Below are positions 7,091 through 62,024 of a stretch of DNA of 64,000 nt, in pieces. This stretch comes from Alphaproteobacteria bacterium (GTDB lineage: Bacteria > Pseudomonadota > Alphaproteobacteria > Micropepsales > Micropepsaceae), in assembly GCA_947465395.1 (NCBI GenBank), contig CANIAL010000009.1, positions 1 to 64,000 on the forward strand. Reading direction: 5' to 3'. The translations under genes and the position numbers were made by a program. Every line of letters begins with the position of its first letter. Positions within the stretch are counted from its first letter, which is position 1. A model generated the notes under the pieces. The model had not been told where the DNA came from and searched no databases. It saw only the letters and a program-made list of their open reading frames with translations.

Positions 7091-7633
7091 ATGCGGCGGC
7101 GAATATTGGCATGTGCGATGATGCTGCTGGCGGCGTCGCCTGCGCTTGCGAAGGAAAACAAGACCATCACCACGCTTGGCACCGGCGTCGCCATCGCCGT
7201 GCCGGTGATCGCGGGCTTTATCACCATTGAAAAACACGACTGGAAAGGCACCGCGCAGCTGGGCGTGGAGACCATCCTGACGGTGGGAACGGCGCTGGCG
7301 CTGAAGGAAATCGTGCGGGAGCGGCGGCCCGACGGGTCTGACTTCCAGTCCTTCCCGTCCGACACCACGGCGCTGTCGGCCTCTGGCTCGGCTTTTTTGT
7401 GGGCGCGCTATGGCTGGCGCTATGGCTTGCCCGCCATGGCCGCCACGCAGTTCGTGTCCTATTCGCGGGTGCAGGCCGACAAGCATCACTGGTACGACAC
7501 CTTGGCCAGTTCGGCCATGGCGGCGGGCTATGCCTATGTCTTCACCACGCCGTTCAAGCAGCGCTACAACATCAACACCAGCCTGCAGGCCACGCCGGAC
7601 AGCGCCTTTGTGCAGCTCTCCTATAATTGGTGA
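7091..7633 (+). CDS. PAP2-family phosphatase-like protein with altered second motif
   Basis: 180 residues from the ATG at 7091, which has an AAAAGGA ribosome site; an upstream GTG at 7067 is less likely. It has a signal peptide or first membrane segment (MRRRILACAMMLLAASPALA). Motif C1 of the PAP2 superfamily (KX6RP) is present as KEIVRERRP. Motif C3 (SRX5HX3D) is present as SRVQADKHHWYD, including the nucleophilic His. Motif C2, normally PSGH, reads FPSDTTA, so the general-acid histidine is missing. The protein may be a weakened or non-classical lipid/undecaprenyl phosphatase, or may have lost activity. A strong terminator follows directly. Confidence 0.8.
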   Translation: MRRRILACAMMLLAASPALAKENKTITTLGTGVAIAVPVIAGFITIEKHDWKGTAQLGVETILTVGTALALKEIVRERRPDGSDFQSFPSDTTALSASGSAFLWARYGWRYGLPAMAATQFVSYSRVQADKHHWYDTLASSAMAAGYAYVFTTPFKQRYNINTSLQATPDSAFVQLSYNW

Positions 7634-7640
7634 GGCAAGA

Positions 7641-7674
7641 AAAAAGCGCCCCATCTTGCGATGAGGCGCTTTTT
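7641..7674 (+). terminator. Intrinsic terminator after PAP2 gene
   Basis: A 10-bp stem AAAAAGCGCC / GGCGCTTTTT encloses a smaller CATC/GATG stem with a TTGC tip. T-rich on both strands, it can act bidirectionally between the (+) PAP2 gene and the (-) aminotransferase. Confidence 0.85.
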
Positions 7675-7679
7675 AATGA

Positions 7680-7780
7680 CCCCCTCCGGTTTCAGCTTCC
7701 GCTCGGCTCCCAAGAGGTCGCCTTCGCTCGCTGAAACCACCTCCCCTCTTGTGCGCTTCGCGCACGAAGGGGAGGAGGGT
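7680..7780 (+). repeat. Intergenic palindromic element, full copy 1
   Basis: Starts CCCCTCCGGTTTCAGC, continues CTCGGCTCCCAAGAGGTCGCC, closes the first stem with GCTGAAACC, then forms CCTCCCC...GGGGAGG capped by GTGCGC-TTC-GCGCAC (7751-7765). The same architecture recurs near 41.3, 50.4 and 61.9 kb, with diverged copies elsewhere. It lies between two converging transcription units. Confidence 0.85.
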
Positions 7781-7787
7781 TCGGTGT

Positions 7788-8960
7788 TTACGTAAGGATT
7801 TTTCCGGAAACATTGAAGAAGCCTTCCATGTCGGCCTTGTTGCCGATGGAGATACGGCCCACGGTGGGCCAGATCGGCCAGCGGTCGGCGGCGATCTGCA
7901 CGCCCTGCGCCTTGTAGATGGCGATCATTTCCTTGTTGGACTTGGACTTCCAGTCCACCATCACCATGTTGCCTTCGCTGGGGCCGATCACGCGCAGGCC
8001 ACGCTTGGTCAGGAAGGCGATGGTCATGGCCTTGTTTTCCATCAGCTCCTTGCGGCGGGCGGCGATGATGTCCGTCGCCGTCAGGCTGGCGTTACAGGCG
8101 GCCACGGTGGCGACCGAAGGACGGTCACCTTCGTACAGCTGGATCTTCTTCAGGACATCCGGCTGGGCCAGCAGGAAGCCCGCGCGGGCGCCCGCCATGC
8201 CGAAAATCTTGGAGAAGGTGCGCGCGATGATGACTTCCTTGCCCGCCCGCACCAGGTGGACGGCGGTATTGTTGGGATAGCCCTTGCTGAGATGGATATA
8301 GGCTTCGTCAATCAGCACGATCGAACCGGCGGGCTTGTTGTCCACCAGCCATTCGATTTCCGCCATCGGCGTCATGGTGCCGGTGGGGTTGTTGGGGTTG
8401 ACCACATAATACATGCCCGCATTCGGGTTGGCGGCCAGCATCGCCTTGACGTCATGGCGATAGTCGGATGACAGCGGCACCAGCGCCACCGGCGCCTTGA
8501 CGTATTTCGCCACCCGCACGACGTTGTTGTAGGACGGGTCGGCCATCACCATGCCGCGCGTGGGCGAGCAATAGGCGACGATGGTGCGCGACAGGATGCC
8601 GCCCGAGCCAGGATAAACCGCGACATTGGCTTCCGGCACATTTTCCACGGTGGCGATGGTCTTGATCAGGCGTTCCGCCTCGCCGCTGGGCGAATAACGG
8701 TTGGCATTGGCGAAAGTGGCGGCGGCGGCCTTTTGCGCCGGCTCCATCGGGCCGGTCCAGCATTCATTCAGGCCGATGCGGATCATCTTGCCGCCCGGCG
8801 CGGCATCGTCTTCGGCCTGCGCGAAGGCAGCTTCGCCGCTGATGTTCAGCATGGCGGCGGCGCCGCCGGTGAACAGCATGGCAGTGCGCATCATCTGGCG
8901 GCGCGAGTAACCGCGGCTGAGCAGGTCGTCCTGGATTTCCGGCTTGATCAAATGTGTCAT
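7788..8960 (-). CDS. Tat-exported histidinol-phosphate-aminotransferase-like PLP enzyme
   Basis: 390 residues from the ATG at 8960, supported by an AGGGGAG ribosome site. Residues 18-45 form a twin-arginine signal: SRRQMM followed by a hydrophobic run and an AFA-type cleavage site, so the enzyme is predicted to act in the periplasm. The body is fold-type I PLP aminotransferase of the HisC-like group: GSGGILSRTIVAYCSP, ADPSYNNVV, VNPNNPTGT, LIDEAYIHL, and the Schiff-base lysine in ARTFSKIFGMAGARAGF. The substrate is not determinable. Most HisC relatives are cytosolic, so export is notable. It is followed in the same direction (reading leftward) by the repeat at 7680. A secreted hydrolase and gamma-glutamyltransferase lie upstream on the same strand. 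Confidence 0.88.
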   Translation of the reverse strand: MTHLIKPEIQDDLLSRGYSRRQMMRTAMLFTGGAAAMLNISGEAAFAQAEDDAAPGGKMIRIGLNECWTGPMEPAQKAAAATFANANRYSPSGEAERLIKTIATVENVPEANVAVYPGSGGILSRTIVAYCSPTRGMVMADPSYNNVVRVAKYVKAPVALVPLSSDYRHDVKAMLAANPNAGMYYVVNPNNPTGTMTPMAEIEWLVDNKPAGSIVLIDEAYIHLSKGYPNNTAVHLVRAGKEVIIARTFSKIFGMAGARAGFLLAQPDVLKKIQLYEGDRPSVATVAACNASLTATDIIAARRKELMENKAMTIAFLTKRGLRVIGPSEGNMVMVDWKSKSNKEMIAIYKAQGVQIAADRWPIWPTVGRISIGNKADMEGFFNVSGKILT

Positions 8961-20088: not shown

Positions 20089-20090
20089 CC

Positions 20091-20140
20091 CGCCAGCGTT
20101 CGCAAGGCTGGACGCCTTGCTTACCGCCGCGCAGGGGAGG
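20091..20140 (+). repeat. Intergenic repeat module, partial copy shared with 52.8 kb
   Basis: Fifty bases beginning CGCCAGCGTTCGCAAGGCTG are almost identical to 52781-52830, with only a few substitutions. The module corresponds to the second hairpin half of the large intergenic element. Confidence 0.8.
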
Positions 20141-21499: not shown

Positions 21500-21616
21500 A
21501 CCCCTCCGGCCTTCGCACGTTCGCTCGATGGCAAAAGCGCGTTCGCGCTTCCGCCATTCTCGCCGTGCTACGGCTACCTCCCCTTCAGATGCGCTGCGCG
21601 CAAAGGGGAGGGTGGG
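21500..21616 (+). repeat. Intergenic palindromic element, variant copy
   Basis: Begins CCCCTCCGGCCTTCGCA (the second subtype, lacking the GTTTCAG arm) and ends with CTCCCC...GGGGAGG capped by TGCGC-TGC-GCGCA at 21590-21602. It lies downstream of the DUF2188-like gene and convergent to the MFS gene. Confidence 0.75.
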
Positions 21617-22913: not shown

Positions 22914-22940
22914 CAACCCCTCCGGCCTTCGCAACTTTTG
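22914..22940 (+). repeat. Fragment of the intergenic palindromic element
   Basis: CAACCCCTCCGGCCTTCGCAA repeats the left end of the second subtype seen at 21500 and 30536, but the hairpin half is absent. It lies in the 161-bp divergent region between the MFS and cupin genes. Confidence 0.55.
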
Positions 22941-23048
22941 CATATCCGGGCTTTGCCTTGGTGTTTTGCACCAGTGTTTTGCGCCCTCTTTTTATCTGCG
23001 CTATGCATTCCGGGCCGGATCAACCGGCTGTCCTATGGGGAGAATCAC

Positions 23049-23435: not shown

Positions 23436-23450
23436 CCATACAGGTCATTC

Positions 23451-23488
23451 TCCCCCTTTTGCGCGATAGCGCATTAAAGGGGGAGGTG
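23451..23488 (+). repeat. Intergenic hairpin of the palindromic family (hairpin half only)
   Basis: CTCCCCCTTT-TGCGC-GATA-GCGCA-TTAAAGGGGGAG forms a long stem, equivalent to the second half of the full elements, between convergent genes. It may serve as a terminator in both directions. Confidence 0.7.
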
Positions 23489-30535: not shown

Positions 30536-30645
30536 CCCCCTCCGGCCTACGCAACTTTGCTTCGGTGCTCGGCTAACGCCTGCGCGCCTCGCGTTGCTGC
30601 GGCCACCTCCCCCGCCTGTGTGCTTCGCACACGCAGGGGAGGGAT
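30536..30645 (+). repeat. Intergenic palindromic element, second subtype
   Basis: Starts CCCCCTCCGGCCTACGCAAC and ends CACCTCCCCCGCCT-GTGTGC-TTC-GCACAC-GCAGGGGAGGG. The tip GTGTGC/GCACAC differs from GTGCGC/GCGCAC of the 7.7-kb copy, yet the pairing is kept. Located between the OPT start and the GNAT stop. Confidence 0.8.
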
Positions 30646-35896: not shown

Positions 35897-35900
35897 CTAA

Positions 35901-35940
35901 TCCCCCCCGCCAACCTTGCCAAGATGAGGGGGGAGGGGGT
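35901..35940. repeat. Partial intergenic palindromic hairpin between divergent genes
   Basis: A C-rich arm (TCCCCCCCGCC), a short spacer and a G-rich arm (GGGGGGAGGGGG) form a hairpin like the second half of the full elements. It supplies the ribosome-binding G run of ygfZ. Confidence 0.55.
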
Positions 35941-35954
35941 AACCCGGTAACCGC

Positions 35955-37298
35955 ATGACTGACACATTCGATCTCCTGGTCCGGGGCGGCACAATCGCCA
36001 CCTCCAATGGCATTGCCCCCGGCGATATTGGGGTCATTGGCGGGCGCATCGCCGCCATCGGGTCGCTTTCCGGGGCCAAGGCCGCCGAGATTTTCGAGGC
36101 CAAGGGCCTGCATGTCCTGCCCGGCGTCATAGACAGCCAGGTGCATTTCCGCGAACCGGGCAATCCGGCCAAGGAAGACCTGGAAAGCGGCACCCGCGCC
36201 GCCATCCTGGGCGGCGTCACCGGCATTTTCGAAATGCCCAATACTGCGCCCCCCACCACCACCCGCGCCGCCATCGAAGACAAGCTCGCCCGCGCCAAGG
36301 GCCGGATGCATTGCGATTATGCTTTTTACGTGGGCGCGACACCGGCCAATATCGGCGCGCTTGCCGAACTGGAAAGACTGCCCGGCGTCTGCGGCGTGAA
36401 GGCGTTTCTGGGGTCTTCCACCGGCACGCTCCTGCTTTCCAGCCCCGAAGACATTTTGGCGGCGTTGCGTGCGGGCAAGCGCCGCGTCGCCGTTCATTCC
36501 GAAGATGAAGACCGGCTGATCGCCCGCAAGCCTTTTGCGGAACGCGGCAAGCCCTGGACGCATCCGGTCTGGCGCGACGTGGAAACCGCGCGCGGCTCCA
36601 CCGAGCGCGTGCTGGCATTGGCCAAGAAAGCCGGCCGCCGCCTGCATGTGCTGCATGTGACCACGGGGGACGAGATTCCGCTGCTGGCCGCGTCCAAGGA
36701 TTTCGCCACCGCCGAAACCACGCCCCAGCATCTCACCTTGGCCGCGCCGGAATGTTACGAGCGGCTTGGCGCCTATGCCCAGATGAATCCCCCCATCCGC
36801 GACGCCAGCCACCGCGAAGCCTTGTGGAAAGCGGTGCGCGACGGCGTGATTGACGTGATCGGCTCCGACCATGCCCCGCACACCCGCGCCGAGAAAGACG
36901 GCACCTATCCCGACACGCCATCGGGCATGCCGGGCGTGCAGACCCTAGTCACCTTGCTGCTGGATCACGTCAACAAGGGCAACATGACGCTTGAACGCTT
37001 CGTGGATTTGACCGCCCATGGCCCGCAGCGCATTTTCGGCATCGCGGGCAAGGGGCGCATCGCGCGCGGCTATGACGCCGACTTCACCATCATTGACCTG
37101 AAACACAGCCGCACCATCGAGAATAAATGGATCGCATCCCACTGCGGCTGGACGCCCTTTGACGGCATGAAGACACAAGGCTGGGCGGTGGCTGCGATCC
37201 TGCGCGGGCAAATCGTGATGCGCGATTGCGAACTGGTGGCCAAGGCGTCGGGCGAGCCGCTGCGTTTCGTGGAAACGCTCACGCCCGAAGCCGCTTAA
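35955..37298 (+). CDS. pyrC: Dihydroorotase (QxH subclass)
   Basis: 447 residues of the cyclic amidohydrolase family. The protein resembles dihydroorotases of the subgroup with a QVHFREPG motif: DSQVHFREPGNPAKEDLESGTRAA, in which the first His of the usual HxH metal pair is Gln. Other residues are present: EMPNTAPP, the carbamylated Lys in GVKAFLGSSTG, HSEDE, HVLHVTT, and GSDHAPHT. It would convert carbamoyl aspartate to dihydroorotate in pyrimidine synthesis. Because the metal ligand is altered and pyrB is absent here, a different cyclic amide substrate is possible. It is followed by LysE with a TAATG overlap. Confidence 0.85.
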   Translation: MTDTFDLLVRGGTIATSNGIAPGDIGVIGGRIAAIGSLSGAKAAEIFEAKGLHVLPGVIDSQVHFREPGNPAKEDLESGTRAAILGGVTGIFEMPNTAPPTTTRAAIEDKLARAKGRMHCDYAFYVGATPANIGALAELERLPGVCGVKAFLGSSTGTLLLSSPEDILAALRAGKRRVAVHSEDEDRLIARKPFAERGKPWTHPVWRDVETARGSTERVLALAKKAGRRLHVLHVTTGDEIPLLAASKDFATAETTPQHLTLAAPECYERLGAYAQMNPPIRDASHREALWKAVRDGVIDVIGSDHAPHTRAEKDGTYPDTPSGMPGVQTLVTLLLDHVNKGNMTLERFVDLTAHGPQRIFGIAGKGRIARGYDADFTIIDLKHSRTIENKWIASHCGWTPFDGMKTQGWAVAAILRGQIVMRDCELVAKASGEPLRFVETLTPEAA

Positions 37299-41286: not shown

Positions 41287-41402
41287 CCCCCTCCGGTTTC
41301 AGCTTCCGCTCGGCTGCTCGGCCTCCGGCCTTCGCACATGCCTCGCTCGCTGAAACCACCTCCCCCTCTTGTGCGCGTGCCGCGCACGATGGGGAGGCGG
41401 GT
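41287..41402 (+). repeat. Intergenic palindromic element, full copy 2
   Basis: Same start CCCCCTCCGGTTTCAGC and arm GCTGAAACC as the 7.7-kb copy, with a different middle (CTGCTCGGCCTCCGGCC). The second hairpin is CTCCCCCT...GGGGAGG capped by GTGCGCG-TGC-CGCGCAC (41371-41387). Lies between two convergent genes. Confidence 0.85.
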
Positions 41403-50384: not shown

Positions 50385-50489
50385 GCCCGCCTTCCCCCTT
50401 CGGTGCGGAGCACCATGAAGGGGGAGGTGGTTTCAGCGGGCGAGGGCGACCTCTTTGGGAGCCGAGCGGAAGCTGAAACCGGAGGGGGT
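50385..50489 (-). repeat. Intergenic palindromic element, full copy 3 (inverted)
   Basis: On the minus strand it reads CCCCCTCCGGTTTCAGC, CTCGGCTCCCAAAGAGGTCGCC, GCTGAAACCACCTCCCCC. The tip is GGTGC-GGA-GCACC on the plus strand (50402-50414), another pairing-conserving tip variant. It ends 18 bp from the DUF3108 stop codon. Confidence 0.85.
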
Positions 50490-52721: not shown

Positions 52722-52832
52722 CCCCCTCCGTCACAGCTCGGGTCTGCCAAGAGGTAGACACCTCGCTGAGACACCCCCCCCGCCAGCGTTCGCAAGGCTG
52801 GGCGCCTTGCTCACCGCCGCGCAGGGGGAGGG
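52722..52832 (+). repeat. Intergenic palindromic element, diverged copy
   Basis: Left part CCCCCCTCCGTCACAGCTC...GCTGAGACAC is a weakened first stem. The right half (52781-52830) is nearly identical to 20091-20140. This lies directly upstream of an unannotated membrane protein gene. Confidence 0.75.
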
Positions 52833-61896: not shown

Positions 61897-62024
61897 ACCC
61901 TCCGGTTTCAGCTTTCACTCGGCTCCCAAGTGGTCGCCTTCGTCCGCTGAAACCACCTCCCCCTTCCAGGTGCTTTTTGGCGCTCCGGCTCGCGCCTACG
62001 CGCTTCGCACTGAAGGGGGAGGCG
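61897..62024 (+). repeat. Intergenic palindromic element, full copy 4
   Basis: AACCCTCCGGTTTCAGC, CTCGGCTCCCAAGTGGTCGCC and GCTGAAACC, then CCTCCCCCTTC...GAAGGGGGAGG with an enlarged tip. Compared with copies at 7.7, 41.3 and 50.4 kb the first half is the best conserved. Located between the small membrane protein and accA. Confidence 0.85.

Follow-up and report, generated by a model that had tools for sequence, protein, structure and literature searches.

A modular two-hairpin palindromic element of Alphaproteobacteria, akin to REP and RIME repeats and often placed just past stop codons

RESULTS

Copies in the Window

Direct reading of the window (the whole 64-kb stretch of DNA that was analysed) and extraction of the copies gave seven full and three partial copies of a repeat. 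Their positions, with the parts of the first copy, are as follows.

7680–7775, plus strand: full copy, H1 type A, H2 tip GTGCGC/GCGCAC
7680–7687, plus strand: foot CCCCCTCC of this copy, its last seven bases mirroring the H2 arm CCTCCCC
7688–7738, plus strand: hairpin H1 of this copy (GGTTTCAGC...GCTGAAACC)
7740–7775, plus strand: hairpin H2 of this copy (CCTCCCC...GTGCGC/GCGCAC...GGGGAGG)
7776–7791, plus strand: 3' tail of this copy, family consensus CGGGYCTGNGTTTTC, weakly conserved
20089–20140, plus strand: degenerate H2-like fragment lacking H1; shares 96% identity with H2 of the 52.7-kb copy
21501–21611, plus strand: full copy, H1 of the GGCCTTCGCACG type
22917–22941, plus strand: partial copy, consisting of the foot plus the 5' arm of H1
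23450–23486, plus strand: solo H2 hairpin lacking H1
30536–30642, plus strand: full copy, H1 type B, H2 GTGTGC/GCACAC
41287–41397, plus strand: full copy; the orthologous site lacks an element in five relatives, where the stop codons overlap
50390–50488, minus strand: full copy, inverted; H1 type A, H2 GGTGC/GCACC
52722–52831, plus strand: full copy; H1 type E, GTCACAGC...; arm CCCCCCC; long H2 with an insert
61897–62022, plus strand: full copy with a nested palindromic insert inside the H2 loop

A sequence-only reading of the window had listed about ten full or partial copies, and its account of H2 tips that differ in sequence yet pair in each copy was correct, as was the single inversion (50390–50488). 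Its item at 35.9 kb was rejected: it is the dihydroorotase (pyrC) promoter region, and both foot and H1 are missing. The sequence upstream of that gene in most of ∼25 relatives is TTGCCAAG...GGCTAAC-like and holds no repeat; the closest dihydroorotase relatives belong to unclassified alphaproteobacterial metagenome-assembled genomes (84–85%), followed by "Rhizobiales bacterium dw_265" (81%). The host may, as a guess, belong with Micropepsales/Rhizomicrobium. The GC-rich hairpin at 35900–35955, upstream of the gene, is a conserved promoter-like region. In an Rfam scan of the window, three tRNAs alone reached the gathering score, and the repeat matched no family. A terminator-like hairpin with a T run occupies 7640–7679, between the gene end at 7633 and the copy at 7680.

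Copy Number and Anatomy in the Genome

The genome (assembly G000, 1.77 Mb, 17 contigs, 93.5% complete) was searched by sequence pattern, not by covariance model. The exact palindromic stem CCTCCCCN{10,40}GGGGAGG had 53 matches versus 1 for the reversed pattern, and CCCTCCGGTTTCAGC had 26 versus none for its reversed control, so the search did turn up further copies. The repeat is indeed a dispersed palindromic family, but the unit is modular, with two hairpins and a conserved foot, rather than one palindrome. As read in 59 full copies, it is ∼100 bases long and comprises, in order, a T-rich 5' flank ending in ACC, the foot CCCCTCC, hairpin H1, one base, the arm CCTCCCC, hairpin H2, the arm GGGGAGG, and the tail. 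H2 is an apical hairpin with a small asymmetric bulge that recurs among the copies. H1 occurs as several types, of which A is GGTTTCAGC/GCTGAAACC, B and C are GGCCTTCGCAAC or GGCCTTCGCATC with an inner hairpin, and E is GTCACAGC....

The nested palindromic insert TTTTTGGCGCTCCGGCTCGCGCCTACGCGC is common to the H2 loops of the 61897–62022 copy and a copy at locus L024, and a related insert, GCGCGAAGCGCCAAAA, is common to L007 and L023. All copies had been described as intergenic, which is true of nearly all, but a few in the genome lie inside predicted ORFs. One of these (L033, ∼1433, minus strand) falls within a predicted ORF of 2343 nt, where it could contribute amino acids to the product or be the trace of a disrupted gene.

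The outer pairs of H1 change as pairs (GGCC/GGCC, GGCT/AGCC, GCCT/AGGC, and GCCC/GGGC). In this genome the outer 4 bp were 97% paired natively versus 80% after permutation of the 3' arms (0/1000), and 148 H1s from seven genomes were 85% paired versus 58% when permuted (0/1000). Permuting the 3' arm lowered pairing in 1000 of 1000 trials for the copies of this genome and for the G461, G358, G280, G012, and G448 sets, and swapped halves cost ∼5 kcal/mol for H2 and ∼9 kcal/mol for H1. These results indicate that the structure-preserving variation goes beyond chance. It had also been read as pointing to selection or generation of a folded RNA or single-stranded DNA; the compensation was confirmed, but by itself it does not prove that the RNA is under selection, as both arms can change together when a quasi-palindrome is corrected by template switching. 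In four cases an identical H2 was joined to a different H1. The unit is thus a mosaic, and H1 and H2 cassettes have been exchanged between copies.

Relatives and Taxonomic Range

The architecture CCTCCG-H1-CACCTCCCC-H2-GGGGAGG was present in 12 of 385 sampled genomes of the class, from at least seven families, with no control matches, and in 25 of 38 genomes reached via named loci; carriers include Phenylobacterium, Caulobacter, Hyphomonas, and Oceanicaulis. A search of the class genomes for H2 only (ATCTCCCC...GGGGAGAT) gave just five places. In G461, one of the 69 genomes of the host genus, in G358 and G280, and in a few others, copies are arranged as head-to-head doublets in which the feet face each other; their H2 tips are short and near-invariant, and H1 is variable. 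Oceanicaulis has copies of the element paired with copies of a sister class, and an array in G012 (L278, 1489–2390) holds about ten copies whose orientation alternates strictly with a ∼197-bp period, resembling a BIME.

Mirror Coupling of Foot and H2 Stem

Read backwards, the foot CCCCTCC gives the arm CCTCCCC itself; the two are mirror images, not complements. We read the feet of other classes with the foot left free in the search and took the commonest (modal) foot for each class of purine strand.

Purine strand GGGGAGG: modal foot CCCCTCC, 99 copies
Purine strand GGGAGAAGG: modal foot CCCTCATCC, 17 copies
Purine strand GGGGAGA: modal foot CCCCTCT, 10 copies
Purine strand GGGGGGAG: modal foot CCCCCCTC, 8 copies
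Purine strand GGGGAAG: modal foot CCCCATC, 5 copies
Purine strand GGGGAAGG: modal foot CCCCATCC, 2 copies

In parallel register, G takes C, and A takes T or, at one position, A. This rule was obeyed at 49 of 49 positions over about seven sequence classes that share ancestry, one of which (CCCTCTCCC with CCCTCACCC) has weak support (one of 11). Of 5040 permutations of the assignment, the true one alone fits. Over the same classes, ordinary antiparallel pairing of foot and stem was no better than chance. In classes a to f the modal foot mirrors the arm, except that A may stand in for T at one position; this is the polypyrimidine/polypurine mirror symmetry of H-DNA. The GGGAGAAGG class, which was found by a search without the foot in the pattern, includes copies that lack H1 and have only 2–3 nt between foot and arm. 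The rule ends at ∼7–9 nt, and the next base in G358 breaks it. At the level of single copies, the pooled score of the non-consensus classes was 3.35 versus 3.20, which is not significant because automatic placement of H1 was wrong in many copies; since the class-modal feet carry the signal, coupling is claimed for classes. Ordinary duplex pairing leaves the mirror coupling unexplained, whereas a foldback triplex, at which these data hint, would account for it.

The paired variation of H1 and H2 might instead be mutational, template switching in quasi-palindromes copying one arm onto the other in a single event. The many different, well-paired H1 and H2 stems that coexist in one genome while the feet stay fixed, and the nested inserts in the loops, speak for such an origin. 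The relation of the foot to the purine strand of H2 does not: no strand-copying process writes a reversed, uncomplemented copy, so mutation bias cannot account for the coupling, and the recurring asymmetric bulge of H2 argues for some constraint. We regard template switching as a serious possibility, although the odds are somewhat against it; it is compatible with a mobile element.

Placement behind Stop Codons

With a gene caller trained on the genus, we assigned the copies to gaps by orientation. Fourteen copies in this genome lay in convergent gaps, 4 in divergent gaps, 23 in tandem gaps in sense, and 7 in tandem gaps in antisense; in dw_265, 11 tandem copies were sense and 2 antisense. The pooled sense bias was significant (23:7 and 11:2, p = 0.00017). 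Among the background gaps (178 tandem, 76 divergent, and 25 convergent) the ratio of convergent to divergent is 25:76, versus 14:4 for the copies (p = 3e-5), so divergent gaps are avoided. Of 36 copies that follow a gene on the same strand, 28 start no more than 15 nt past its stop codon, mostly at a distance of 2–15 nt. Thus, in this genome and in dw_265, copies sit just 3' of stop codons, and they usually read in the same direction as the gene before them. The rule is not universal, since Rhizobiaceae copies occur in divergent gaps as well.

Sense orientation, position, and convergent enrichment are also what would be seen if the copies were gene-end devices, terminators or stabilisers of mRNA 3' ends, kept by selection, with their repetitiveness incidental. 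The hairpins are GC-rich, and the tails of this genome's copies contain TTTT. However, the T-rich stretch begins ∼11 nt past the stem rather than directly after it and is lacking from most class-wide copies, in other genera; a GC hairpin with an immediate U run, as in an intrinsic terminator, was not found in this genome's own copies. The 7680 copy, moreover, is preceded by an ordinary terminator-like hairpin at 7640–7675, and the gene pair at 41 kb does without the element in five relatives. We therefore judge selected gene-end devices to be an unlikely account of the family.

Insertion and Search for a Mobiliser

The 41-kb copy sits between two convergent genes. In G480, G393, G481, G398, and G439 the stop codons of the same gene pair overlap or abut, with no element between them. 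The empty site thus indicates that the element inserts; the comparison shows a gain at the 41-kb site, repeated loss being less likely. The exact boundaries of the insertion are not fixed, as the five relatives are only ∼70–78% identical in protein. No clear target-site duplication was seen in the flanks of doublets (a possible AT at most).

A linked RAYT-like transposase had been proposed as a check, and it was not found: no gene of the Y1/RAYT family (PF01797) is present in this genome, nor in several genomes with 10–50 copies. The copy-rich G358, G461, G411, G467, G063, G278, and G280 all lack one, and some carriers are complete or nearly so. The gene was present in 11 of 50 genomes, with no evident relation to copy number, and none of ten proteins encoded near or between the G461 copies has a transposase domain. 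Strict membership among REPs fails on this absence.

The copies could still be true REPs moved by a RAYT (an IS200/IS605-like HUH transposase) of past or unsampled strains, the foot being the cleavage site and the coupling a recognition of that site by a guide. Head-to-head doublets, alternating arrays, and a PF01797 gene in a few members of the genus (e.g. G388, G386, and G400) agree with this idea, as does IS608, in which guide and cleavage site recognise each other non-canonically. Yet most copy-rich genomes, complete and near-complete ones included, have no Y1 gene, the strand that would be the guide is part of the H2 stem, and the hairpins carry no GTAG or CGTC tag, their ends being CCCCTCC and GGGGAGG. 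Movement by a RAYT is for these reasons quite improbable. GC-rich hairpins are frequent in GC-rich genomes, but a compositional artefact is refuted by the near-zero reversed-pattern controls and by identical long cores at unlinked sites, and we give it practically no chance.

DISCUSSION

We consider it probable that the repeat is a non-autonomous, REP/RIME-like mobile palindromic 3'-end element of Alphaproteobacteria. It would be copied by a trans-acting factor working on a folded single strand of DNA and would persist because gene 3' ends tolerate insertion. As RNA, it may act as REP hairpins do, by protecting 3' ends, terminating transcription, or slowing ribosomes near the stop codon. As a lead for function only, Liang, Rudd and Deutscher reportedly found in 2015 that ribosomes are slowed by E. 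coli REPs lying no more than 15 nt from a stop codon.

The coupling of foot and stem raises a broader possibility, which we put forward tentatively: a widespread proteobacterial superfamily of palindromic repeats may keep an intramolecular triple helix, in which the foot, outside H1, would join the H2 stem as third strand and H1 would be an optional addition to the loop that connects them. The basis is base-triple co-variation in parallel register over six to seven classes (foot C with G-C; T or A with A-T). Antiparallel purine-motif triplexes permit G.G-C, A.A-T, and T.A-T. The foot of the complementary strand supplies exactly these triples, including the A-over-A positions that a pyrimidine motif would forbid. 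On the complementary strand, the foot may therefore fold onto the H2 stem and add a short third strand of the purine motif, so that foot and stem would change together in mirror register. Should the mirror rule stem from a triplex, a triple helix conserved in bacterial chromosomes would have come to light through sequence comparison, and a single architecture would link RIME-like and other families of repeats.

The two-hairpin family was not described in the open-licence literature that we searched. Location at gene 3' ends is typical of E. coli REPs. The present family has the tens to hundreds of extragenic palindromic copies expected of a REP, and its provisional assignment to the REP/MITE type holds as regards high copy number, intergenic location, pairs and arrays in relatives, and insertion at an empty site, but not as regards a RAYT. 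It is like REP/BIME and REPIN sequences (PMC3733652, PMC2817692, PMC3116915) in its high-copy extragenic palindromes and inverted pairs or arrays and differs in that most carriers lack a RAYT, the two hairpins of a unit are unlike, and stem sequences vary within one genome. Br-REP1 and Br-REP2 of Bradyrhizobium (PMC5082802) are likewise alphaproteobacterial palindromic repeats in 3'-UTRs with several stem-loops per unit, but their consensus (CCGGAATCTCGAGATTCCGG and CGAGATTCCGGGTTCGGC..., PMC5082802) is unrelated to CCCTCC...CCTCCCC...GGGGAGG. The element is short, non-autonomous, and dispersed, as MITEs are, and the G461 doublets have inverted ends (ATCCTCCCC...GGGGAGGAT); inverted ends were seen in doublets only, and neither a clear target-site duplication nor, among the ten genes near copies and in the Y1 family, a parent transposase was found. 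Palindromic repeats are common in bacterial genomes, and their selective basis and spread without RAYTs are open questions, for which this family offers a defined unit, an empty site, a placement past stop codons, and a structural rule that can be tested.

Among known elements RIME, a ∼100-bp alphaproteobacterial intergenic mosaic with two palindromes, comes closest, and the window element shares this two-palindrome, ∼100-bp intergenic mosaic plan. RIME1 and RIME2 are named as Rhizobium-specific intergenic mosaic elements (Osteras 1995, cited in PMC2873474). A search of plasmids with a window copy gave no match. A Rhizobiaceae element of this plan, with CCCCCCTCTGCCCTGCCGGGCATCTCCCCCACAAGGGGGGAGATTGG-like units of the form CCCCTCTG-H1-CATCTCCCCC-tip-GGGGGGAGAT, was found at 925 places on 184 plasmid records; it resembles RIME and may be the same element. 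Its foot and arm sequences are unlike those of the window copies, and it obeys the same foot rule. The GGGAGAAGG and GGGGAGA stem classes are abundant on Rhizobium, Sinorhizobium, and Shinella plasmids (L368–L371), and the GGGAGAAGG class also matches Xanthomonas, Azospirillum, and one Planctomyces plasmid.
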